From positions 124,001 through 188,000 of the forward strand of contig NZ_JGZD01000006.1 of NCBI RefSeq assembly GCF_000741645.1: a stretch of 64,000 nt of DNA. The letters run 5' to 3'. The position numbers and the translations under genes were made by a program. The notes under the pieces are model-generated. The model made no database searches, was not told the origin of the DNA, and worked only from the letters and a program-made list of their open reading frames with translations. This document shows positions 11,977 through 52,560 of this stretch, piece after piece; the first letter of the stretch is position 1; the number at the start of each line of letters is the position of its first letter. The stretch is from Bifidobacterium minimum (GTDB lineage: Bacteria > Actinomycetota > Actinomycetes > Actinomycetales > Bifidobacteriaceae).

Positions 11977-12630
11977 ATGCATGTGATCGCAGGACGGTTC
12001 AAAGGCACCCCTCTGGCGTCGGCCCCCTCCGGAACGCGGCCGACCACCGATAGGACGAAGGAGGCCATCTTCTCGCATCTCGAGGCGTGGAACATGGTGG
12101 AGGACTCCCGCGTGCTCGACCTGTTCGCGGGTACCGGCGCCCTGGGCGTCGAAGCACTGTCCCGGGGCGCGGCGAGCCTGGTCTGCGTGGATTCGTCTCC
12201 CGCCGCCATCGCCGCGGTGAACGACGTCGCAAGGCGGATCCGCGCGCGCATGCGGTCGACGGATCGTGCGGACATCCACGCGGTCAGAAGTCCCGTGGAG
12301 CGTTATCTGCGGTCGGCGGTCTCCGAGCGGTTCGACGTCGTCTTCATCGATCCGCCCTATGACTACCCCACGGCGCATTGCGAGGAGCTTCTGGCCACTC
12401 TGGCGGATCACAGGATGCTCCCGCCCGAAGGGATCATCGTGCTGGAGCGTTCGACGCGTTCCGTCATGCCGCGGGATGACGACCGATGGAATCTGGTCGA
12501 CCGGAGGACCTACGGCGAGACCGCGGTGCTGTACTACGAGATCACGGGGGACGACGGGACTGTGGGGAACGACGGGCTCATAGCGAACGGCGGCCTCGCG
12601 GAGCATGGCGAGACCACTGAGCATGCATGA
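11977..12630 (+). CDS. rsmD: 16S rRNA (guanine(966)-N(2))-methyltransferase RsmD
   Basis: The start at 11977 gives MHVIAGRFKGTPL, matching RsmD N-termini; the longer open frame before it is repeat DNA. Motifs are TTDRTKEAIFSHL, VLDLFAGTGALGVEALSRGA (SAM-binding motif I) and VVFIDPPYDYP (the NPPY-type catalytic DPPY). It methylates G966 of 16S rRNA in the 30S subunit. The last 35 residues are low-complexity Gly/Asp/Glu and may be a local extension. In many actinobacteria rsmD is next to coaD; here coaD lies 20 kb away. Confidence 0.92.
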   Translation: MHVIAGRFKGTPLASAPSGTRPTTDRTKEAIFSHLEAWNMVEDSRVLDLFAGTGALGVEALSRGAASLVCVDSSPAAIAAVNDVARRIRARMRSTDRADIHAVRSPVERYLRSAVSERFDVVFIDPPYDYPTAHCEELLATLADHRMLPPEGIIVLERSTRSVMPRDDDRWNLVDRRTYGETAVLYYEITGDDGTVGNDGLIANGGLAEHGETTEHA

Positions 12631-42968: not shown

Positions 42969-43597
42969 GGGTTAAATGACATAATGTGTGTTTTATTCCG
43001 GTGTGTCGAGGTGGCGTCATCGGGTCTTGCCTGCCCGGCCTTTCCTGATGTCGAATCCTGATTCGTAGGCGTCAACGCCGGGTGCGGCCTCTTGTATGCT
43101 GCCGGCGGGCAGGCCGGTGCTCGTGGTGGGCGGCTCGGTGGTTTCGTCGTGTGCGGCGGTGATGAACGACGCGGGGTCGGGGTTGTGCGTCTTCATGTGC
43201 AAGACCCGTTCGCAGCGTTTCATGTGTTCCTCCGTCAGGCCGCGGTGGGTGTCGAGGACGCGCTTGATGTCGGCGTTGACGCCGCCCTCGAGACGGTTGG
43301 TGGTGGACGGGACGCTGCCTGCGGAGGCGGGCTTTGGGGTTGCCGGGGTCGTCGCGTGCGGTGGTGCGTTGGCCGATGATGTCGTCCCGTTCCTGCGCAT
43401 CGGCTCGCCGCATATCGTGCACGGTCTCGCTGTGGATGATTTTCTTCTGCCCATCCGTCAAGCACAGCAGGATCACGTTTTCCGGAAAAGTCAAGCGGGG
43501 ACCTCGATAATGCCCCGGACCCAAAATCACCCCGCGACACGCCTTACGGCAGTAGGGATAAGTGGCAAAATAAAACACACATTTTGTCATTTAACCC
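42969..43597 (-). mobile_element. Internally deleted IS element (IS1249-like) with both ends
   Basis: The ends are inverted repeats of 29 bp, GGGTTAAATGACAWAATGTG... at the left and its complement at the right, with one mismatch. Between them lie the transposase's N-terminal zinc-finger region and its C-terminal part with the whole catalytic core missing, so the element is about 629 bp. GGTTCG occurs just outside both ends, a possible target duplication, though not in perfect register. It could be moved only by a full-length relative in trans. Confidence 0.8.
43017..43454 (-). pseudogene. Transposase remnant, IS256-superfamily/IS1249-like
   Basis: The frame joins RPCTICGEPMRRNGTTSS, a CxxC...KNG finger as found at the N-terminus of IS1249-type transposases, directly to STTNRLEGGVNADIKRVLDT and HRGLTEEHMKRCE, the conserved C-terminal NxLEGG...HRGLS region. 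The DDE core of roughly 200 residues between them is gone. The join keeps frame, but no active enzyme is possible. Confidence 0.75.
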
Positions 43598-43699
43598 TCG
43601 GTTCGTGCGGTGGGTTTGTCGTTGTGAGTGTGCGTGGACATACGCGAGGTGACAGATGCCGGGAGATGTCTCAGCCCGGACGGTGGGTCTGTCATCGTG

Positions 43700-43862
43700 C
43701 GTATGTGTGGGCATACGTAAGTTGATGGATGTGGGTCGATGCGGCGGGGATGTCCGGCAATTGGCTGGTTACGTATATCACGGGATGCGCAAGGTGTCAG
43801 ATGTCAGCTGATACTCCAGCTCGATTGGCAGGTCCGCCGTCCCGCGTATGGCCAGACATACG
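43700..43862 (+). repeat. Left copies of palindrome family CGTATG-N6-CATACG
   Basis: Perfect copies at 43700-43717 and 43845-43862 share an 18-bp hyphenated palindrome with a six-base centre; an imperfect relative lies near 43632-43645. The same family recurs at 51126-51365. No gene is supported between 43598 and 44311. Confidence 0.75.
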
Positions 43863-43935
43863 TGATTGGGCGGATGCTGGGCGGCTAGAGGCGTCGCTGT
43901 TGTGCCAGCCACTTTTGAGAGGCTCGAGCCGTGAC

Positions 43936-44252
43936 TTTGTGAGGATTGGCTCGCACGATGCCGGTTGGCGTGCTCCGATTCCTTCCAGCGAGTGGTGTTG
44001 GGCGTCATTGTGTGAGGATTGGCTCACACAATGACTGTCTGGCTGGCCGTGATCTGCTGTGTTACTGCGTCAGAGGGTGATTGTGTGAGTTCTGGCTCAC
44101 ACAATGATCGGTTCCATGGTCTCGAGCTGGTGCCTGGCAGGTTGCGGGCGTCGTCGTGTGAGGATTCGTTCACACAATGGGGGCCGGTCGGCTGAAATCC
44201 GCCGTATTGCTCTGCCTGCAGATGGCAATGCGAGTCCCGGCTCACACAACGG
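43936..44252 (+). repeat. Left array of palindrome family TTGTGTGAG-N6-CTCACACAA
   Basis: Copies lie at about 43936-43960 (decayed), 44006-44033 (perfect 11-bp arms, centre GATTGG), 44080-44105 (perfect 10-bp arms, centre TTCTGG), 44153-44178 and 44229-44252 (decayed). Spacing is about 70 to 75 bp. The family also occurs at 50913-51083. Confidence 0.8.
44011..44063 (+). repeat. 53-bp direct repeat, left copy, flanking the cytosine cassette
   Basis: This stretch, which includes most of a palindrome and the sequence ACTGTCTGGCTGGCCGTG, is identical to 50915-50967. The two copies bracket the codA-codB-pucR-deaminase block of 6.9 kb. Confidence 0.85.
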
Positions 44253-44311
44253 CCAGCCCGCGCCGAGTAATCACCCAGCGCGGGCCGGCAAAAGCGATGA
44301 CGACGGCATCA

Positions 44312-45562
44312 TCAGTGATGTTCCGGATTGAAAAGATGCGTTTCATGCGGCGTCGTCCGCGCAATGACGCGACCGTGTCGGATGCTGTAGAGCACCTCGA
44401 CGTTCTCGTTGAGCGCATGGTAGAAGTCTGGGGCATTCAGCACGATGCAGTTCGCCGGCTTCCCGACGGCGATGCCGTAATCAGCGGGTGCCAGATGCAG
44501 CGTGCTGGCGCCGTTGTACGTCACATATCGGAAAGAATCCATGATCTGTCCGTACCCCATGAGCTGCGCCGCATACAACCCCATGCGAACCACATCGAAC
44601 ATGTTGCCGGCTCCCAGCGGACTCCACGGATCCTGGATATCGTCTTCGCCGAATGCGACGTTGATTCCCGCTTCGGAAAGCTCTTTTACGCGAGTCAAGC
44701 CGCGACGCTTCGGATACGTATCGAAGCGCCCGCCCAGATGTATGTTGACCAGCGGGTTGGAAACGAAGTTGATGCGTGACATTCCCAGCAAACGGAACAG
44801 CTTGTAGGTGTACGCGTCATTGTACGATCCCATCGCCGTGGTGTGGCTTGCGGTCACCCGGTCGCCCATGCCGCTCTCGTAGGCGAGCGTGGCGAGCGTT
44901 TCGAGGTTGCGCGATGCCGGGTCGTCAATTTCATCGCAATGCACATCGACCAAACGGTCGTTACGTTCGGCGAGATCCATCAGGAATCGTAGCGATTGCG
45001 CGCCATAATCGGCCGTGAACTCGAAGTGTGGAATGCCGCCTACGACGTCGGCTCCTTCTTCGACGGCTTCGCGCATGAGGTCTTTGCCGTGCGGGAACGA
45101 GAGAATTCCCTCTTGCGGGAATGCGACGATCTGCAGTGTCACATACGGTTCGATTTCGTCGCGAAGCTCAAGCAGTGCGTGCAACGCGGTGAGACTCGGG
45201 TCGGTCACATCCACATGGGTGCGGACGTACTGGATTCCACGTTTCGCCATCATCAGCAGTGTCCGTCTCGCGCGGTCTTTGACATCCTCGACGGTCAAGG
45301 TCTTCTTGCGCTCCGACCAGATGCGGATACCGTCGAAGAGCGTTCCGGTCTCATTCCATTCCGGGTCGCCCGCGGTGAGTGCCGCATCGAGGTGCACGTG
45401 AGGGTCTACGAATGGTGGGATCAGCAGCCCGCCTCGGGCATCAATCACCTCGTCATCCCCGGTTGGTTGCAGCGATGCTCCGATGGCGGTGATGACTCCG
45501 TCCGTGATCTTGACGTCTGACGTTTCGGGAGAGTTTTCGACATGCACGTTATGGATAATCAT
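44312..45562 (-). CDS. codA: Cytosine deaminase
   Basis: The 416-residue protein follows E. coli CodA motif by motif: PPFVDPHVHLDAALTAG (metal HxH), GIQYVRTHVDVTDPSLTAL, LQIVAFPQEGILSFP, DVHCDEIDD (metal His and catalytic Glu), VTASHTTAMGSYNDAY, NIHLGGRFDTYPKRRG and FGEDDIQDPW (metal Asp). It hydrolyses cytosine to uracil and ammonia in pyrimidine salvage. It lies 123 bp after the codB stop and is probably co-transcribed with it. The 750 bp downstream are gene-free palindromic repeats. Confidence 0.93.
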   Translation of the reverse strand: MIIHNVHVENSPETSDVKITDGVITAIGASLQPTGDDEVIDARGGLLIPPFVDPHVHLDAALTAGDPEWNETGTLFDGIRIWSERKKTLTVEDVKDRARRTLLMMAKRGIQYVRTHVDVTDPSLTALHALLELRDEIEPYVTLQIVAFPQEGILSFPHGKDLMREAVEEGADVVGGIPHFEFTADYGAQSLRFLMDLAERNDRLVDVHCDEIDDPASRNLETLATLAYESGMGDRVTASHTTAMGSYNDAYTYKLFRLLGMSRINFVSNPLVNIHLGGRFDTYPKRRGLTRVKELSEAGINVAFGEDDIQDPWSPLGAGNMFDVVRMGLYAAQLMGYGQIMDSFRYVTYNGASTLHLAPADYGIAVGKPANCIVLNAPDFYHALNENVEVLYSIRHGRVIARTTPHETHLFNPEHH

Positions 45563-45599
45563 GATGCTTCTTTCAACAAATCATGCGATGACAAAATTA

Positions 45600-45638
45600 G
45601 GGATGACAATGAGGGATGACAGCATGGGACGACAATGA
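45600..45638 (-). repeat. Three tandem 13-bp repeats between codB and codA
   Basis: GGGATGACAATGA is followed by two variants (GGGATGACAGCAT and GGGACGACAATGA); a more diverged GCGATGACAAAAT precedes them. They lie between the hairpin and the codA start. Confidence 0.7.
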
Positions 45639-45678
45639 GGCGGCGCGCCCCGGTTGACTTGCCGAAGGCGCGCCGCCT
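45638..45678 (-). terminator. Strong hairpin between codB and codA
   Basis: A perfect 12-bp GC stem (AGGCGGCGCGCC and complement) with a 17-base loop lies eight bases after the codB stop. No T-tract follows, so it may be an attenuator or mRNA-protecting hairpin rather than a full terminator. Confidence 0.6.
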
Positions 45679-45685
45679 GGAGCGG

Positions 45686-47170
45686 TCAGGCGAGGGACGC
45701 GTTGCGTTCCCGCAGATTGGTGGCGCGGGCGAGCAGATAGTACACGCCGCCCGAGGTGACGATTCCCGCGAGCCATGACAGGTCGATGCCTCCGATAGCG
45801 GCGGAAATCGGACCCTGGAAGATGGGAAGTCCGCCATAGCTGAACATCCAGGTCATGAGCAGGCCGAGAACGAACGCGACCATGGCCTGCCAGCGAACCA
45901 CGGGGATGCCGTCGCTGCCGGGTTCGTCGAGAACCGAGGAGAAGTCGTCACGATGGCGTTCGATGACATAGAAGTGAACGAACATGATGCCGCCCCAGAC
46001 CGATGTCCATCCGGCGACGCTGGACAGCCAGCTGTCAAGGGTGTTGCCCATGTCGGACAGGCTGAGGAACAGGCACACGCCAAGCCACGCGAAGAATCCG
46101 ACCGCGATATTGATGGCACGACGGTTGATCTTGAGATCCAGGCATTGCACCGACAGCGTGAAGCTGTAGATGTTCAGGATATTCGTCGCAATCGGGCCAT
46201 GCACGACCAGCAGCAGTACGGGAATGGCAAGCGCGCCGAAGTTGTCGACAATAAGCTGGCCGGGGTCAATGCTGCCGGATTTCGTGGCGAGCGTCGCGCC
46301 AAGCAGGCCAAGCCACACCACGGGGATGAGCTGTCCGAGTGCGCTCGCGCCGAACAGTTTGCGGCGGGGAACGGAACGGCTGACAAAACGTGAATAATCG
46401 CAGGCGTAGGTAAGCCAGGTGAAGCCCCAGCCAATGCCGATGGCGGTCATGATGGAAGAGATGGCGGCGATCTTGTCGGTACCGGTGCCGGTGAGGTTGC
46501 CCGCATAATTCCAATCGATGCCCATGAAGCCCCATGCGGCGATGGTCATGGCCAGAAGAATGGCGACGGTGGGCGGCACAGTCCACTTTTCGAACGTCGA
46601 TATCGCCTTATATCCGAAGAGAGACACGATGACCTGAATGATCATGACCACGGCGCCGATGCAAGCCTTGAGCACGAAATGGCCTTCGATGGAGTCAACC
46701 AGGCCGATTTTCATGAGCAGTGCGGTGATCAAGTCCAGCACCACCCAAGTGTTGATGGCACACCAGCCGATGACTACGATCGCCTGGATAGCCGTCGGAA
46801 TGTAGTTGCCGTACCGGCCGAAAACGCGCCGACCGAGCAGCATGCCGGTCAGGCCTGTGCGCTGCCCGAGCAGCACCATGCAGCCGAAAACGGACATGCC
46901 AATGGCGTTGCCGGCAAGGATGACGGCGAAAGTCTCCCATAGGCCCAGACCCATCTGGACGCCGAGAGCGCCAAGCAGCCAGTTGATGGGGGCAACGTTC
47001 GCGCCGAACCATACCCAGAACTGGCCCCACAGGCTTTTGGTCTTTGCCTGTTCGGGTACTACTGAGAGGAAGTCTTCGTAATTTTCATTGCTGCTTGCCG
47101 TGGCATGTTCAGCCGTGGGTGTTTGTGATGGCATTTCGTTGGTTGAAGCCAATGTAATCCTCTGCGTCAT
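45686..47170 (-). CDS. codB: Cytosine permease (NCS1 family)
   Basis: ATG 47170 has AAAGG nine bases upstream. The 494-residue protein has about twelve membrane spans. NCS1 features are FWVWFGANVAPINWLLGALG, WGFTWLTYACDYSRFV and the C-terminal IVTSGGVYYLLAR. It would import cytosine with a cation. The CodA downstream supports cytosine rather than allantoin or hydantoin as substrate. Confidence 0.88.
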   Translation of the reverse strand: MTQRITLASTNEMPSQTPTAEHATASSNENYEDFLSVVPEQAKTKSLWGQFWVWFGANVAPINWLLGALGVQMGLGLWETFAVILAGNAIGMSVFGCMVLLGQRTGLTGMLLGRRVFGRYGNYIPTAIQAIVVIGWCAINTWVVLDLITALLMKIGLVDSIEGHFVLKACIGAVVMIIQVIVSLFGYKAISTFEKWTVPPTVAILLAMTIAAWGFMGIDWNYAGNLTGTGTDKIAAISSIMTAIGIGWGFTWLTYACDYSRFVSRSVPRRKLFGASALGQLIPVVWLGLLGATLATKSGSIDPGQLIVDNFGALAIPVLLLVVHGPIATNILNIYSFTLSVQCLDLKINRRAINIAVGFFAWLGVCLFLSLSDMGNTLDSWLSSVAGWTSVWGGIMFVHFYVIERHRDDFSSVLDEPGSDGIPVVRWQAMVAFVLGLLMTWMFSYGGLPIFQGPISAAIGGIDLSWLAGIVTSGGVYYLLARATNLRERNASLA

Positions 47171-47339
47171 CGGGCACCGCCTTTCTATCATTTGCCGCTG
47201 CCGGAGTTGTTCCGGCGTCTTGGAGGAACCGTCGGTCATGGATCACTGAATTCATGACATGCGTGACAATGAGTGGTTGCCTCGTACTATCGCCGGAGTG
47301 ATTTGCGCGATGGTGAACCGGTGATTACGGTGTCGGAGC

Positions 47340-47358
47340 GACAAATGGACGAATTGTC
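47340..47358. promoter_or_regulatory. Inverted repeat GACAA-N9-TTGTC before codB
   Basis: In the 399-bp gap between pucR and codB (47171-47569) this hyphenated repeat lies about 170 bp upstream of codB. It could be a PucR site, but there is no direct evidence. I see no gene elsewhere in the gap. Confidence 0.3.
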
Positions 47359-47569
47359 TAGTTGTTGAGCGTGGGTGAAGCGTGCTGATTGATTCGGACC
47401 GCTGATTTGCTGGGCGCCTTGACTGATGTGTGTGCGTTGGTTGTTAGGCCAGTGACTATTGCTAGGTCCGCGGCTATCGCGGGCTTCCGGGCGATTGGCT
47501 GGTGCAGCGATCGCGCGTTGCCGTGCTTATGCCCGTTGTCTCGGCTCGCCATTACGCGGAGTGCGCCGG

Positions 47570-49258
47570 TTATTGCCCGCCGTCCGCCGGCTCCGCGGCT
47601 TGAAATTCCGTGGCTTGGAGTTCCGCGACTTTGAGTTTCGCGGCGCACAGCAGCAGCGGCCAAGCCATGCTGTCCTCTTTGCTGATGCCGGTCAATTCGG
47701 TGATTTTTGCCAGCCGGTTGTACAGCGTCTGACGATGAATCTCCAGCAGTTCGCACGCCTTGGAAATATTGCCGCCTGCGTCAAAACAGGCTCCCAAAGT
47801 GCGCATCAGCGATTCCTGATTCGGCAGCGCGTCCCCCAGCATCAGTGACTGCAACGCGCCGGCCGCGTCCCTCGTGTGTCCGATGCCGAGCAGTCGTTGC
47901 GGCGCGGCGGCCAGCAGATTCGTAACCGTACCGGTGCCGGGCAGGCCTGCGGCATCGTGCGCGGCGAACTGAAGCAGACCGCATTCATCAAGCAGCATGC
48001 TGACGCTCGGCACCGCCCTGCCATATATGCACCATGTTCCAGGCAGCGCGGCCACATCTGCGAGCCGCCGTTTGAGTCGCATCACCGCGTCGCCGCGATT
48101 GCCGGCCTTGCCAGTACCGCCGCCTTGGGCAGGGTCCGGATTTGCATCTGAGGCCGAGCCCGGATTCGTGCCCGTATCCAAGCCCGAGCCGAATTCCGCG
48201 CCCGAACCAGGCCCCTTGTCATCGCCGCCGTCAGCCGCCGCATACAGCCCGAACAGCATGTTCCCCTCCAGTACATCCGCGATGGTGTCCTCGTCTGAAG
48301 CATCCTCCTCTTCGTCGCCGGACAGGCACCGGGAGACGGCGTCGATTGACGACGAAACCGAATCCATGGCGATAGCAAACGGAATCAGGTGTTTCACGTC
48401 GCTCAGGCCAATCGCCTGCAACATGGTGGCTGCATCGTTGATCTCCTGTTCTCCCGCCCGATAGCCGTTCGTCGGTCCCCGCAGCACGTGGGCAAGCATC
48501 GCGTTGCGAGGCTGCGTCTGCACGAATGCGGGCAGTACCTGCTTGATCACTTCATCGACCCGGTCTGCGATCCTTCCGTCTGCGAGACGATTGCGCTGGG
48601 TGATTTCGATGCTTGCGAGCGGGCCGCCGTTCTTGCGCACGTCCAGCACCAGCGTCCGTTCCGCGGGATAATCGGCGTCCGCCGGGCGAATCGACGGTCC
48701 GCAATGCGCGATCACCAGACCGTCGGAATCAAAAATCGCCACGGATTCGCCGAAAATCTCGTTGAGGATTTTCGCGACATCCTGCGCGGAACGGGCAGTG
48801 GCGAGCCGGGTGCGCATCGTCGTGGCGAGTGTGTCGGTGCGCACCTGCACCAGCAGCTGATCCTTGACGATTGAGGTGTTGATGGACTGGCACAAGTCGA
48901 CGAACGGCATGCGCCGATGCATACCGATGACGGGCAGGCCACGCTCGTCCGCGCGAGCAATCATCGCCTTTGGCACGGTGCGCACGCCCTCCACGAGTTC
49001 GATGGCAAGACCTGCTACGCCGGCGTCCACCAACGTGTCCACATATCGGATGATCTCGTTGTCGCCCATATGGCCGAGCAGCGCACTGCCCTCGATGATC
49101 ACCAGTTCGCCGCTGGACAGGAACGAAGCGATATCGTACCGCTCATTCGTGTACGCCCAACGGACCGTGCGGTCCATGCCTGCTTCTCCCGCCTCGATTG
49201 TCGGATCGGTACGAGCGAACATCGGGTCCGTCATCACGTCATGCATCGTCAGCGTCAT
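47570..49258 (-). CDS. PucR family transcriptional regulator
   Basis: The 562-residue protein has an N-terminal PucR sensor domain (RTVRWAYTNERYDIASFLSS, then VIIEGSALLG and GLPVIGMHRRMPFVDL), a middle GGDEF-like region with an acidic Gly/Pro/Asn insertion at about residues 355-390, and a C-terminal HTH_30 (CFDAGGNISKACELLEIHRQ). PucR proteins respond to purine or other nitrogen-base catabolites. Its place between codB and the second deaminase gene suggests it regulates both. Confidence 0.9.
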   Translation of the reverse strand: MTLTMHDVMTDPMFARTDPTIEAGEAGMDRTVRWAYTNERYDIASFLSSGELVIIEGSALLGHMGDNEIIRYVDTLVDAGVAGLAIELVEGVRTVPKAMIARADERGLPVIGMHRRMPFVDLCQSINTSIVKDQLLVQVRTDTLATTMRTRLATARSAQDVAKILNEIFGESVAIFDSDGLVIAHCGPSIRPADADYPAERTLVLDVRKNGGPLASIEITQRNRLADGRIADRVDEVIKQVLPAFVQTQPRNAMLAHVLRGPTNGYRAGEQEINDAATMLQAIGLSDVKHLIPFAIAMDSVSSSIDAVSRCLSGDEEEDASDEDTIADVLEGNMLFGLYAAADGGDDKGPGSGAEFGSGLDTGTNPGSASDANPDPAQGGGTGKAGNRGDAVMRLKRRLADVAALPGTWCIYGRAVPSVSMLLDECGLLQFAAHDAAGLPGTGTVTNLLAAAPQRLLGIGHTRDAAGALQSLMLGDALPNQESLMRTLGACFDAGGNISKACELLEIHRQTLYNRLAKITELTGISKEDSMAWPLLLCAAKLKVAELQATEFQAAEPADGGQ

Positions 49259-49415
49259 ACAAACTGTCCATTTCTCGGCTTCGCGACGTCACCTCCACGT
49301 TACGGCAACGCGCATCATCGCGCCCACAATAGGCGACATACATCACGAACCCGATTCGTCGTACCGGCCGGCGCAAACCGGCAGACGACGGCACGGCAGC
49401 AGGAAGGAGCACACC

Positions 49416-50738
49416 ATGACCACCAGAACCCTGTTCACCAACGCCCACATCGCCACCGGACAGCCCGGCAGCACCGCCGCCCAGACCGCCCCGCTCCAGG
49501 ACATCCTCGTCGAAGACGGCCATTTCGCCGCCATCGGCGAAGGCCTCGCCGCAAGCCTTCCCGCGCAAGGCTACGACATGACCGGCGTGAAAACCGTGGA
49601 TCTCGGCGGCAAGCTCGTCACCCCGCCGTTCTGCGACACTCACCTGCACCTCGACTACGTGTTCACCGCACGCAAGCCCGGCGCCGTCAACGAAAGCGGC
49701 ACCCTGTTCGAAGGCATCCAACGCTGGAGCGACACGAAATCCGACCTCACCGTCGACGAGATCAAGGCACGCGCCCGCAAGGCCGTTGGCATGGAGCTGC
49801 GTCACGGCGTCCAGTACATCCGCTCCCACGCGGACGTCACCGACCCGAACCTCACCTCGCTCAAAGCGCTCCTTGAACTCAAGGAAGAGCTCAAAGACAC
49901 GGTGACCATCCAGATCGTCTCCTTCCCGCAGGAAGGCATGTACTCCTACGAGGGGCCGAACGGCGAAAGTGGCGCGGACCTTGTGGAAGAAGGCCTGCGC
50001 ATGGGCGCCGACTGCGTGGGCGGCATCCCGCATTTCGAACAGTGCCGCGAATTCGGCGAGCGCTCCATGCACACGGTGGTCGAGCTGGCCTCCAAGTATG
50101 ACAAGCTCATCGACGTGCACTGCGACGAAACCGACGACCCGAACTCACGCTACGTGGAACTGCTCAGCGCGCTCGCCTACCGTGCGGGCATCGGCCCCCG
50201 CACCACCGCGAGTCACACGTGCTCCCTGGGATCGGCCGACAACGCGTACTTCTTCCACCTGACCAAGCTGCTCAAGGCTGCGCACATCAACTTCGCGTGC
50301 GCCCCGACCGAAAACCTCTACCTGCAGGGCCGGCAGGACACCTTCCCCAAGCGCCGCGGCATCACGCGTGTCAAGGAACTCACCGACGCCGGCGTCAACG
50401 TGTCGCTCGGTCAGGATTCTATGCAAGACCCGTGGTATCCGCTCGGCAACGGCAACATGATGATCATTCTCGACTATGTGCTGCATGTGGCGCAGATGAT
50501 GAGTTTCCCCGAAATCGATGACGCGATGAAGTTCCTCACCGTCAACGGCGCGACCACGCTCGGCATGCTCGATTCGTACGGTGTGGAAGTCGGCAAGCCC
50601 GCGAACTTCGTGGTGCTGGATGCGGACAGTGTGTTCAACGCCGTGTACGAGCGCTGCGACGTGCTGCGGTCCGTGCGCGACGGGCGGACGCTGTTCACCG
50701 CGACGACGAGCGTGGACTCGGCGACCGAACTGCTGTGA
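49416..50738 (+). CDS. Second cytosine-deaminase-like amidohydrolase
   Basis: ATG 49416 has AGGAAGGAG just upstream; the open frame before it overlaps pucR. The 440-residue protein keeps the CodA plan: FCDTHLHLDYVFTA, QYIRSHADVTDPNLTSL, IVSFPQEGMYSYEGP, DVHCDETDD, TTASHTCSLGSADNAYFFH, DTFPKRRGITRVKEL and LGQDSMQDPWYPLG. Differences around the active site (Glu-Gln-Cys instead of Glu-Phe after PHFE, Cys-Ser instead of Thr-Ala) suggest another substrate such as a modified or ring-varied cytosine. It is divergent from pucR. Confidence 0.85.
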   Translation: MTTRTLFTNAHIATGQPGSTAAQTAPLQDILVEDGHFAAIGEGLAASLPAQGYDMTGVKTVDLGGKLVTPPFCDTHLHLDYVFTARKPGAVNESGTLFEGIQRWSDTKSDLTVDEIKARARKAVGMELRHGVQYIRSHADVTDPNLTSLKALLELKEELKDTVTIQIVSFPQEGMYSYEGPNGESGADLVEEGLRMGADCVGGIPHFEQCREFGERSMHTVVELASKYDKLIDVHCDETDDPNSRYVELLSALAYRAGIGPRTTASHTCSLGSADNAYFFHLTKLLKAAHINFACAPTENLYLQGRQDTFPKRRGITRVKELTDAGVNVSLGQDSMQDPWYPLGNGNMMIILDYVLHVAQMMSFPEIDDAMKFLTVNGATTLGMLDSYGVEVGKPANFVVLDADSVFNAVYERCDVLRSVRDGRTLFTATTSVDSATELL

Positions 50739-50812
50739 GCGTGGGTGTTGTGAGCGCGAGTGTTGTGTGAGTGCTGTGGCCGGTCGGGGTGGACTCGGCG
50801 ACCGAACTGCTG
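50712..50812 (+). repeat. 24-bp end of the deaminase gene duplicated 77 bp downstream
   Basis: The last codons (GTGGACTCGGCGACCGAACT GCTG) at 50712-50735 recur exactly at 50789-50812. The copy is outside the gene. Confidence 0.8.
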
Positions 50813-50912
50813 CGAGGCGTTGCAGCTGGGGATATGCCCTTTGGATTGGCGGGTTCTCGCGGGCTGGCCGTGGGTGCCGTGGGTGAGGCAGATCTCTGAA
50901 GCAGATCCTCTG

Positions 50913-51083
50913 TTTGTGAGGATTGGCTCACACAATGACTGTCTGGCTGGCCGTGATCTGCTGTGTTGCCGTGTCGGCGGGTGATCGTGTGAGGATTGGC
51001 TCCCACAGTGACGCCCATTCCGCCCCACCCAGCCCGATTTCGGTAGGCCGCAGACCATCGTGTGAGGATTGGCTCACATATCC
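50913..51083 (+). repeat. Right array of palindrome family TTGTGTGAG-N6-CTCACACAA
   Basis: Copies at 50913-50937, 50983-51010 and 51056-51083 all keep the centre GATTGG and are again about 70 bp apart. The first is inside the 53-bp direct repeat. No gene is supported in 50739-51332. Confidence 0.8.
50915..50967 (+). repeat. 53-bp direct repeat, right copy
   Basis: Identical to 44011-44063; beyond it the two flanks stay similar but diverge (GTTACTGCG against GTTGCCGTG). Confidence 0.85.
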
Positions 51084-51125
51084 GCCATATGGCCGTTTCG
51101 CAAGTGGGCGGCGATGCTGCGGGTT

Positions 51126-51365
51126 GCGTATGTCCCGCCATGCGTGGGTCGTCGGAGTCGGCCGGTGTCGGTGGTCTGGGTGATGGGGCCTGTCGGTTTG
51201 CGAATGTCAAGACATACGCAGGCCGTCAAATCAGTGATGACGCAGTGGCTAAGCGCTGCGATGCCGCCTGCCACGTATGCCTTGGCATGCGTAGCTGCTC
51301 GGATATATTTCGGTGGTCTCGGTGCCGGCTGTCTATCTCGCCGGTTGCGTATGTCTTGGCATGCG
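51126..51365 (+). repeat. Right copies of palindrome family CGTATG-N6-CATRCG
   Basis: Members lie at 51126-51143, 51201-51218, 51274-51291 and 51348-51365, with a spacing of 73 to 75 bp. Each has a six-base centre (TCCCGC, TCAAGA, CCTTGG, TCTTGG). Confidence 0.78.
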
Positions 51366-51770
51366 TACCTGTCCGGATATGTGATGTCTAGCGCTCGCCG
51401 CCGTGCCCATCAGCGCTCTGCTCCGCCTCGGCGTCGTGTCGCACAGTAACCGAATCCCCGGTTCGATCTGCCGAGAATAAGGCCGTACAAAATTCAGCCG
51501 GATATGACTGCTGTCATCCTCATCGACCGCGAACATGTCACCGGGCATGAACGTCCCGCCCGCGTGCCGCGCGTCATCCAGCAGTCGTGCGGCACGTAAG
51601 CCATCTGGCAGCCGTGCCCACAGGTAGTAACCGCCCAGCGGCGTGCTCCAGCGCATCCCGTCCGGCGCGTACCGGCGCAAGGCATCGAGCATCAGGTCGC
51701 GCCGATGCCCGTAGATTTCGCACAATCGCCCGATATGCCGCCCGATACGCCCACTGCTGAGCAGGGTGTA
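51333..51770 (-). pseudogene. PLP-dependent aminotransferase (MocR-like) C-terminal fragment
   Basis: The frame shows GRIGRHIGRLCEIYGHRRDL, then STPLGGYYLWARLPDG, GTFMPGDMFAVDE and HIRLNFVRPYSRQIEPGI, the C-terminal third of fold-type I aminotransferases in the MocR/2-aminoadipate family. The PLP-lysine and everything before it are missing, cut near 51770 where the MarR-like frame begins. The last 30 codons run into repeat DNA. Confidence 0.7.
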
Positions 51771-52146
51771 CGACGAGGATACGTTCGCGCGCAAGCGGGC
51801 CAGCATCTACCGGTATCTGATCGCGTGGGCGTCGGACGGTTCGGCGAATCCCGCTCTGCCCAGCACCAAGCGGCTTGGCGAGGAGCGACTTCCTCTGATT
51901 GTGCCCGACGGCATGCGTGACAATCCTTTCATCACGGCACATCTGGCATCTCGAATACTGGACCGATATTTGGAACGTATCGCCACGCAGTTCGGTATGG
52001 ATCTTGGCGAAGTGCGGGTCATCGTGTTCCTGCATTATGGTGGTGATACCGCTGATTTCAAGGCCTTGCAGGATTATCTCGACGCCGGGCGCGTGTCGGC
52101 GACCCGGTTGACGGAGACACTGGCGCTCAAGGGATACGTGGATTCC
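51766..52146 (+). pseudogene. MarR-like regulator fragment, 3' end cut by the IS
   Basis: The frame contains NPFITAHLASRILDRYLERI and LDAGRVSATRLTETLALKGY, resembling the dimer helix and recognition helix/wing of MarR proteins. Homology stops at the IS inverted repeat at 52147. The family assignment is tentative because only a weak motif is seen. Confidence 0.45.
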
Positions 52147-52560
52147 GGGTTAAATGACAAAATGTGTGTTTTATTTTGCCACTTATCCCTACTGCCGTAA
52201 GGCGTGTCGCGGGGTGATTTTGGGTCCGGGGCATTATCGAGGTCCCCGCTTGACTTTTCCGGAAAACGTGCCCCTGCTGTGCTTGACGGATGGGCGGAAG
52301 AAAATCATCCACAGCGAGACCGTGCACGATATGCGGCGAGCCGATGCGCAGGAACGGGACGACATCGTCGGGCAGGAAGCGGTGGCGTCGCCTGCGCTGC
52401 CGCGCGAGCAGCGCGGGCGACGGCGGCAACGCGCGGGCAAGCGCCGAATTCCGCGCGTTCCCAGTCCGGGTGACCGGCCGGATGACGCTTGCGCAGGCCG
52501 CCGCGATGCCCGGGGTGTCGCCGCGCACGTTCATCCGTCGCATCCAATGGTGCTGGCATG
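52147..52560 (+). mobile_element. One-ended IS fragment, same family as 42969-43597
   Basis: The left inverted repeat and about 230 bp next to it match the element at 43.0-43.6 kb nearly base for base. This copy retains more of the transposase: the finger RPCTICGEPMRRNGTTSSGR and a helix-turn-helix MTLAQAAAMPGVSPRTFIRR. It then ends at the histidine kinase fragment with no right repeat, so a deletion has removed its other end. The right boundary is approximate. Confidence 0.75.

Follow-up and report, generated by a model that had tools for sequence, protein, structure and literature searches.

The stretch analysed here (the window) comprises 64,000 nucleotides of Bifidobacterium minimum assembly GCF_000741645.1 (contig NZ_JGZD01000006.1, positions 124,001 to 188,000 of the forward strand), in which a cytosine cassette is flanked on both sides by regularly spaced hyphenated palindromes (Table 1). 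An earlier note made from the sequence had described two such families with six-base centres, recurring every 70-75 bp between 43700 and 51365, in mirrored order around the cassette with CGTATG outermost. This description held on nearly every count: the blocks read CCCC-AAAAA-cassette-AAA-CCCC, spacing within blocks is 72-74 bp, and only the left end of the span has to be moved outwards, to 43627. Family A, TTGTGTGAG-N6-CTCACACAA, yielded six window matches at up to three mismatches, where 100 shuffles averaged 0.00, and two weaker copies (cores at 43938 and 44229) bring the left A block to five units, its orientation being read from centres such as GATTGG. Family C, CGTATG-N6-CATACG, yielded eight matches at up to two mismatches (shuffle mean 2.18, largest 7); seven of these lie inside the two arrays, and the degenerate unit at 43772 completes the left array as the eighth. 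The boundary between the families measures 93 bp on the left and 66 bp on the right. Across the B. minimum genome (assembly 88% complete), all eight A sites with at most one mismatch fall in the window, as against six of nine such C sites, the other three being isolated. A scan of the window with Rfam returned two tRNAs and no other match.

Table 1. Palindrome arrays, cassette genes and island boundaries in the window
Feature	Coordinates	Strand	Details
Left C block	43627-43862		Four CGTATG-N6-CATACG units: 43627, 43700, 43772 (3 mismatches), 43845; spacings 73, 72, 73
Left A block	43938-44246	+	Five TGTGAG-N6-CTCACA cores: 43938, 44011, 44084, 44157, 44229; spacings 73, 73, 73, 72
Right A block	50915-51078	+	Three cores: 50915, 50988, 51061; spacing 73
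Right C block	51127-51365		Four units: 51127, 51201, 51274, 51348; spacings 74, 73, 74
Cassette between arrays	44312-50738		Pfam
Amidohydrolase	44312-45562	-	Pfam
Cytosine/purine-type permease	45686-47239	-	Pfam
PucR regulator	47570-49258	-	Pfam
Amidohydrolase	49416-50738	+	Pfam
228-bp inverted repeat, left arm	43370-43597		98% complementary to 52147-52374
228-bp inverted repeat, right arm	52147-52374		Same repeat as 43370-43597
Foreign island with arrays and cassette	43598-52146		Identity comparisons

The earlier note had proposed a genome-wide search and had named patterns confined to this place as an outcome that would refute it; they are not limited to this locus. A-type pairs exactly 73 bp apart (at most three mismatches over 24 positions) were detected in five of 112 congeneric genomes: B. 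minimum itself (5 pairs) and four genomes to which we assign, by inference, the names B. apri (G008, 78 pairs), B. boum (G014, 49), B. thermophilum DSM 20210 (G100, 109) and B. thermophilum JCM 1207 (G101, 38). A reversed control gave none, C pairs occurred in the same five genomes (1, 26, 6, 17 and 7, respectively), and the paired pattern was not found in the other 107. An exact scan of one genome per species, covering 84,980 species, returned 72 stretches, all from B. thermophilum (two records), B. boum and B. apri except for one in Pseudoscardovia radai (L086), and a family-level scan matched eight of 189 genomes at up to two mismatches. The home of the arrays is the boum/thermophilum group together with Pseudoscardovia, where each genome carries many intergenic arrays. 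A third family with the same geometry, B (TTGTGAG-N6-CTCACAA), is also present there. The 72 loci of 8 kb drawn from the exact scan (L025-L096) were picked for an exact A- or B-type pair, and they reveal other arrays, C most of all, only when these happen to be close to such a pair; in them, 8 of 450 units fell inside genes predicted with a home-made caller. Gaps with arrays were tandem, convergent and divergent in 30, 22 and 15 cases, compared to 78, 28 and 28 for gaps without. Among 120 orthologous comparisons, in which some spots are counted repeatedly, an array was present at the corresponding spot in 91, a single palindrome in 11 and neither in 18, and one locus, between genes for an amino-acid permease and homoserine O-succinyltransferase, carries arrays in both B. 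apri and a Pseudoscardovia-like genome (G172).

The A arrays show no bias in orientation relative to genes (12 with, 10 against) or to GC skew (34 and 25). Of 17 B arrays, 16 are on the G-rich strand, but many of them are orthologues and hence non-independent. The B arrays cluster in B. thermophilum DSM 20210, with six within 43 kb (L172, C1 200-220 kb, and L174) around citrate synthase, prfB, ftsEX, smpB and a recQ-type helicase gene. In B. apri and in B. boum, too, the long B arrays found within the fetched loci share a single contig per species. An origin- or terminus-linked centromere was considered and rejected for this cluster, which lies near prfB, about one quarter to one third of the genome from dnaA in 15 complete relatives. 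The paired pattern was not found in viral contigs, one of which, from IMG/VR, holds a lone A-type palindrome (L243, 11635-11652). A generic scan for periodic palindromes found no array in samples of G006, G007, G011 and G015 (100 kb each) or G042 (200 kb), and no further one in B. minimum, where 40 kb and the remainder of the window were covered.

The arms of the palindromes are the most conserved part of the unit. Across 73 orthologous unit pairs, admitted only where spacers were at least 75% alike and with duplicate units removed, arms differed at 22 of 876 sites (2.5%) and spacers at 257 of 3,485 (7.4%; Fisher p 1e-8); centres differed at 52 of 438 sites, and other well-aligned intergenic DNA at 10.9%. 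These values replace an earlier count that was biased by taking unit labels from both sequences, and of which only the insertion-deletion (indel) figures are kept. Spacing is equally regular, with 262 of 271 adjacent distances at 73 (191), 74 (51) or 72 bp (20), in a set that leaves out 27 gaps of at least 144 bp, mostly multiples of 73, where units are missing. If indels accumulated by drift as in other intergenic DNA (89 indels per 1,142 substitutions) and with the observed sizes, only 22-57% of distances would be expected within one base, and 16-45% with a longer mean indel size. Most spacers can no longer be aligned plainly with one another, yet 267 of 368 have a relative above the shuffled threshold, some arrays display dimer-scale (~147-bp) duplication, and unit number varies between species. 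Units thus arise by duplication and diverge afterwards, with palindromes and length being retained. Where one half of a spacer has a relative (173 pairs), both halves were alike in 124, intermediate in 42 and hybrid in 7, indicating passage mostly as whole modules; duplicate units were removed from these counts as well.

The two half-sites of a palindrome vary largely independently. No covariation was found over the inner 12 pairs of A (230 units) or in C (45 units), the paired fraction in both equalled or fell below the shuffled expectation (the lower values may reflect the two-mismatch limit), and at pair 2/15 of family A wobble-type and non-wobble mismatches were equally common (15 and 15). 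This independence is evidence against a hairpin kept by selection, and fits a protein dimer that reads each half-site separately. In the Pseudoscardovia-like genome, 22 of 24 units (from two stretches) have CTCGCAC as their right half, compared to 6 of 74 in the 72 loci, a shift that hints at co-evolution with a protein.

The linkers carry a helical signal of their own. In non-redundant spacers, those more than 60-65% alike being dropped from the profile tests, A+T content oscillates with a best period of 10.6 bp in A (n=79), 10.2 bp in B (n=55) and 10.7 bp in C (n=20), with a phase fixed relative to the palindrome (p <0.0002, <0.0002 and 0.0022 by column permutation), and random background sets of the same size, drawn 1000 times for each family from 1839 windows, never matched it. 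Maxima lie at whole turns from the palindrome centre in all three families (10.2-10.4 modulo 10.5). The oscillation is confined to DNA between palindromes, with amplitudes of 0.127, 0.093 and 0.129 in A, B and C, against 0.019, 0.021 and 0.038 on the outer flanks (p 0.19, 0.43 and 0.40). Pooled, it reaches 0.114 inside (675 flanks, each spacer being read from both ends) and 0.018 outside (151), and none of 1000 inside samples of 151 fell below 0.089. Even in the window alone, the nine within-block spacers tested (three of the 12 were dropped) share this phase (p 0.009).

A second system with a different palindrome repeats this design in genome G060, where 500 kb hold 15 arrays (44 units) and 13 single units, and 28 of 29 spacings are exactly 51 bp; such 51-bp pairs were not found in samples of G100, G101 and G042. 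Spacer A+T has a period of 10.0 bp (n=12; column-permutation p 0.0008), with a phase relative to the palindrome opposite to that of the 73-bp families, and at one position pair 16 units show T-T mismatches and none a restored T-A. Twelve of its 44 units overlap predicted genes, according to a caller trained on another species, which makes the claim of intergenic placement weaker there. All four families have spacer profiles with dyad symmetry about the midpoint (r 0.47-0.66; 0 of 300 shuffles), so that dyads fall both at the palindrome and midway between palindromes, as expected of a regular folded array.

Taken together, the arrays form a genuine class of repeats, functional in appearance and with a new geometry. 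The best reading of their sequence, which we consider probable by a modest measure, is that they are phased operator arrays with bent linkers for a putative dimeric protein. Each palindrome would be a node at which a symmetric DNA-binding protein sits, and the array would form a regular nucleoprotein scaffold. Nodes about seven helical turns apart would present the same face, and an A+T-rich stretch at each turn would let the linker bend or wrap one way between adjacent bound proteins, with whole units gained or lost through recombination. The role of such a scaffold could be local folding, supercoil buffering or insulation between genes. The arrays entered B. minimum together with the cytosine cassette, on an island gained by horizontal transfer. 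Of the three ideas in the earlier note (protein-binding arrays, palindromes moved by a transposase, and borders of a mobile unit), protein binding thus appears to fit best, and its overall interpretation is supported in part.

Several observations weigh against this operator reading. The 73 orthologous pairs lack phylogenetic independence, and common descent of units inflates apparent conservation. Lower indel rates under drift would leave up to 75% (half the rate) or 89% (an eighth) of distances within one base. Spacer indels in aligned arrays are about as frequent relative to substitutions (26 per 383) as those in other intergenic DNA (89 per 1,142); they are shorter (36 bases in 26 events, compared to 310 in 89), although the unit labelling itself excludes large ones, and it is therefore the total length rather than each base that seems to be held. 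Covariation does occur at two outer pairs of A (-7/24 and -8/25) and at five of B (-1 to -4 and -8/25); we put these down to sub-families, and some structure may remain there. The half-site shift in G172 could have come about by expansion of one changed unit. As regards the linkers, the profile tests used a redundancy limit of 60% identity that was not applied in the comparison of inside and outside amplitudes, and background intergenic DNA is itself faintly helical (power 0.0235 versus 0.0200 when shuffled), without being phase-locked. In G060 the outer flanks retain a weaker signal (0.089, p 0.004, versus 0.186 inside), and 51 bp corresponds to 4.9 turns at 10.5 bp, short of five. Finally, 11 boundaries between A or B and C blocks are spaced at 48-97 bp, with three at 73-74, and the model consequently holds only if contacts join like units.

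An extension of the operator reading, which is possible but which on balance we doubt, is a sequence-coded DNA-folding system in which lineage-specific nodes and their partner proteins, joined by bend-coded linkers of whole turns, would build regular wrapped intergenic fibres, with seven turns in the boum/thermophilum group and Pseudoscardovia and about five in another lineage. If true, this would be a bacterial counterpart, in design, of phased nucleosome arrays; to our knowledge, no bacterial chromosome carries a sequence code for regular DNA wrapping. The combination itself, of conserved nodes, spacing tight to about 1 bp and helix-phased linkers, recurs in two bifidobacterial lineages with different nodes.

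Several known systems share features with these arrays. Gyrase provides one rival: in the repetitive extragenic palindromes (REPs) and bacterial interspersed mosaic elements (BIMEs) of enterobacteria, intergenic palindromes form regular clusters, and BIME-2 binds gyrase (PMC2817692, PMC3733652). The arrays could accordingly be gyrase-binding sites like BIME-2 of E. coli, the palindrome and its flanks being wrapped by DNA gyrase to buffer intergenic supercoiling, which we regard as unlikely. The symmetric gyrase motif of E. coli has a pair of 47-bp arms in which GC oscillates every 10.75 bp (PMC6379681), and the linkers of ~49-55 bp oscillate likewise, at 10.2-10.7 bp; G060 adds its weaker signal on outer flanks and an enrichment of arrays between convergent genes (8 of 15, compared to 34 of 194 array-free gaps). 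Yet wrapping on both sides of a centre predicts phased outer flanks, whereas A, B and C oscillate only between palindromes, and the A+T phase is reversed in G060. That the arms are the most conserved part of the unit also counts against gyrase, which is not known to require a palindrome.

The REP/BIME comparison itself fails on other grounds. The palindromes here are likewise intergenic and regularly clustered, but their orientation is uniform rather than alternating (53 of 59 A arrays), and the inner arms lack compensatory pairing. The earlier note had suggested that such elements might be moved by a transposase of the TnpA-REP type; this was not borne out, as Y1_Tnp (PF01797) matched seven of the 112 genomes, G060 included, and none of the five with 73-bp arrays, which also sets aside an origin from REP-associated tyrosine transposases. 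The single Y1_Tnp gene of G060 (C1:1697268-1697630, a 144-amino-acid frame) has no array palindrome in the surrounding 3.4 kb (L097), and the 12 fetched Y1 loci, this one among them, held none at up to two mismatches save two isolated C-type sites in L102.

Recombination offers another explanation, in which the palindromes would be core sites of a site-specific recombinase, with arms of 11-13 bp around a 6-bp centre, and the arrays would be shuffling grounds like integrons or Neisseria intergenic mosaic elements (NIMEs); we give this a slim chance. The architecture does resemble the core sites of tyrosine recombinases. The cassette is placed like one oversized spacer between two A palindromes. 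It is present in B. thermophilum JCM 1207 and B. boum but missing from DSM 20210 and B. apri, where the arrays run on uninterrupted; at the DSM 20210 junction, the left side of the C unit at window position 43700 is joined to the spacer that follows a right-hand JCM 1207 unit, and A palindromes mark the ends of the homology block that surrounds the cassette. Recombination has thus taken place at or beside the palindromes, and ordinary homologous recombination would explain these junctions too. Passage of spacers as whole modules also suits a recombinase, as does the excess of length changes above 1 kb at arrays (14 of 120, compared to 5 of 133 controls), which stems partly from the arrays themselves. 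Against it, array flanks are as collinear between species as controls (109 collinear and 2 broken, versus 106 and 2, wherever both flanks could be located; for another 51 arrays and 45 controls the limited database contained just one flank, and BLAST matches under 400 or 200 bases were dropped), which also rejects the arrays as rearrangement hot spots, those length changes notwithstanding. The crossover in DSM 20210 lies at the edge of the palindrome and not its centre, judging by the relatives available, and a recombinase leaves the spacing and the phased A+T unexplained. A dedicated tyrosine recombinase was rejected, since this array-richest genome has two Phage_integrase matches in total, probably XerC and XerD. 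The idea in the earlier note that the arrays are borders of a mobile unit therefore survives in part: the cassette comes and goes with junctions at or beside palindromes, length changes are commoner at arrays, and the segment arrived on an island bounded by a 228-bp inverted repeat, but the flanks themselves are no less collinear than controls.

A functionless minisatellite-like repeat, spread by slippage and ectopic conversion with the palindromes as recombining seed, has a comparably slim prospect. Related spacers, the ~147-bp duplications, the varying unit numbers and an indel rate in spacers not meaningfully below that of other intergenic DNA are what it would produce, while it does not account for diverged spacers that hold 73 bp beyond drift at the observed rate, for the retention of arrays in most orthologous comparisons, or for helical phasing in four families at two different periods. 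Hairpins are very improbable, whether in transcribed RNA (as terminators or small RNAs) or in single strands read by an HUH enzyme: the arms could pair as a stem of 9-13 bp around a centre that in A is mostly GATTSR, and families A and B show covariation at a few of their outer pairs, but compensatory changes are lacking in the inner A pairs and in C, wobble is not preferred, T-T mismatches accumulate in G060, and the Rfam scan of the window matched tRNAs alone.

One of these arrays has in fact been recorded before. Table 1 of a 2015 survey (PMC4521832) lists, for B. thermacidophilum subsp. porcinum, an "Undetermined" array of clustered regularly interspaced short palindromic repeats (CRISPR) with the repeat TTGTGTGAGGATTTGCTCGCACA (23 bp, five repeats, no cas genes), which is an A-family unit. 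The same survey lists cas-less entries with TGTCCGATTCTCCAGAATCGGACA (B. dentium) and ATGTCCGATTCTGCAGAATCGGACA (B. ruminantium), both matching the G060 palindrome. Among the open-access matches listed, it is the only paper on bifidobacterial repeats that prints these sequences, and a genome note on B. thermophilum RBL67 mentions CRISPRs only (PMC3642284). We reject a CRISPR identity for the arrays: in contrast to CRISPRs, the repeats are degenerate and palindromic, the arrays are dispersed, and most spacers are related to those of other units. Searches returned no plasmid match for the right array stretch and no phage match for the left, and no cas family among 18 proteins of the B-array region in G100 or nine near arrays in L053, L224 and L226. 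Arrays of the present kind offer an alternative reading for some cas-less bifidobacterial "CRISPR" calls.

Also comparable in design is sopC/parS of plasmid F, with 12 repeats of 43 bp that each contain a 16-bp inverted repeat bound by ParB (PMC9178275). Both consist of tandem units of fixed length with one inverted repeat each for a dimer and a linker making up the remainder; the present arrays differ in their 73- or 51-bp units, in their many chromosomal intergenic locations and in spacers of little similarity, and they come without an extra ParB gene. The latter was rejected because each of eight array-bearing genomes searched, including G000 and G130, has one HTH_ParB match, as do nine of 12 other genomes (G011 and G041 have two, G044 none). 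NIMEs are also intergenic arrays of ~20-bp hyphenated palindromes with longer segments between, combining dRS3 (ATTCCC-N8-GGGAAT) with RS elements, their segments being repeat families of 30-160 bp (PMC3898611). In the present arrays, by contrast, the segments keep a constant length and their A+T oscillates in phase with the helix, and identity with dRS3 was rejected on sequence and on the six-base centre.

Within B. minimum, the arrays are passengers on an island acquired from a B. thermophilum-like donor. Identity to B. thermophilum JCM 1207 is 96% over the interval 44229-50928, compared to only 87% for nearby pgi, and 7.7 kb (43373-51078) match G130, which belongs to another genus-level group, at 99.3%; G130 also holds a second, related copy of the segment. 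The bounding 228-bp repeat belongs to an insertion sequence that truncated the left array, and a full-length relative of which in G130 gives a weak Transposase_mut match. Arrays of this type provide a marker of DNA transferred from the boum/thermophilum group. Beside the right array, position 51764/51765 joins DNA that lies 3.4-4.3 kb apart in B. thermophilum, B. boum and B. apri, and just within that array a 28-bp direct repeat is a local duplication of the end of the amidohydrolase gene (50712-50739, with a copy 77 bp downstream at 50789-50816).

In both G130 copies (L222 ~7414; L223 ~3285; reverse-complement positions 12570 and 14694) the island stops right after an A palindrome (CTCACACAA) and adjoins an insertion sequence, whose rve-type transposase was identified in L222. 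By analogy with IS1397, which targets REPs, this insertion sequence may target the A palindrome. In L223, a major-facilitator transporter and another frame replace the stretch matching window positions 44290-47275 (the permease and one amidohydrolase), so that the array-bounded slot holds different cargo in the second copy.

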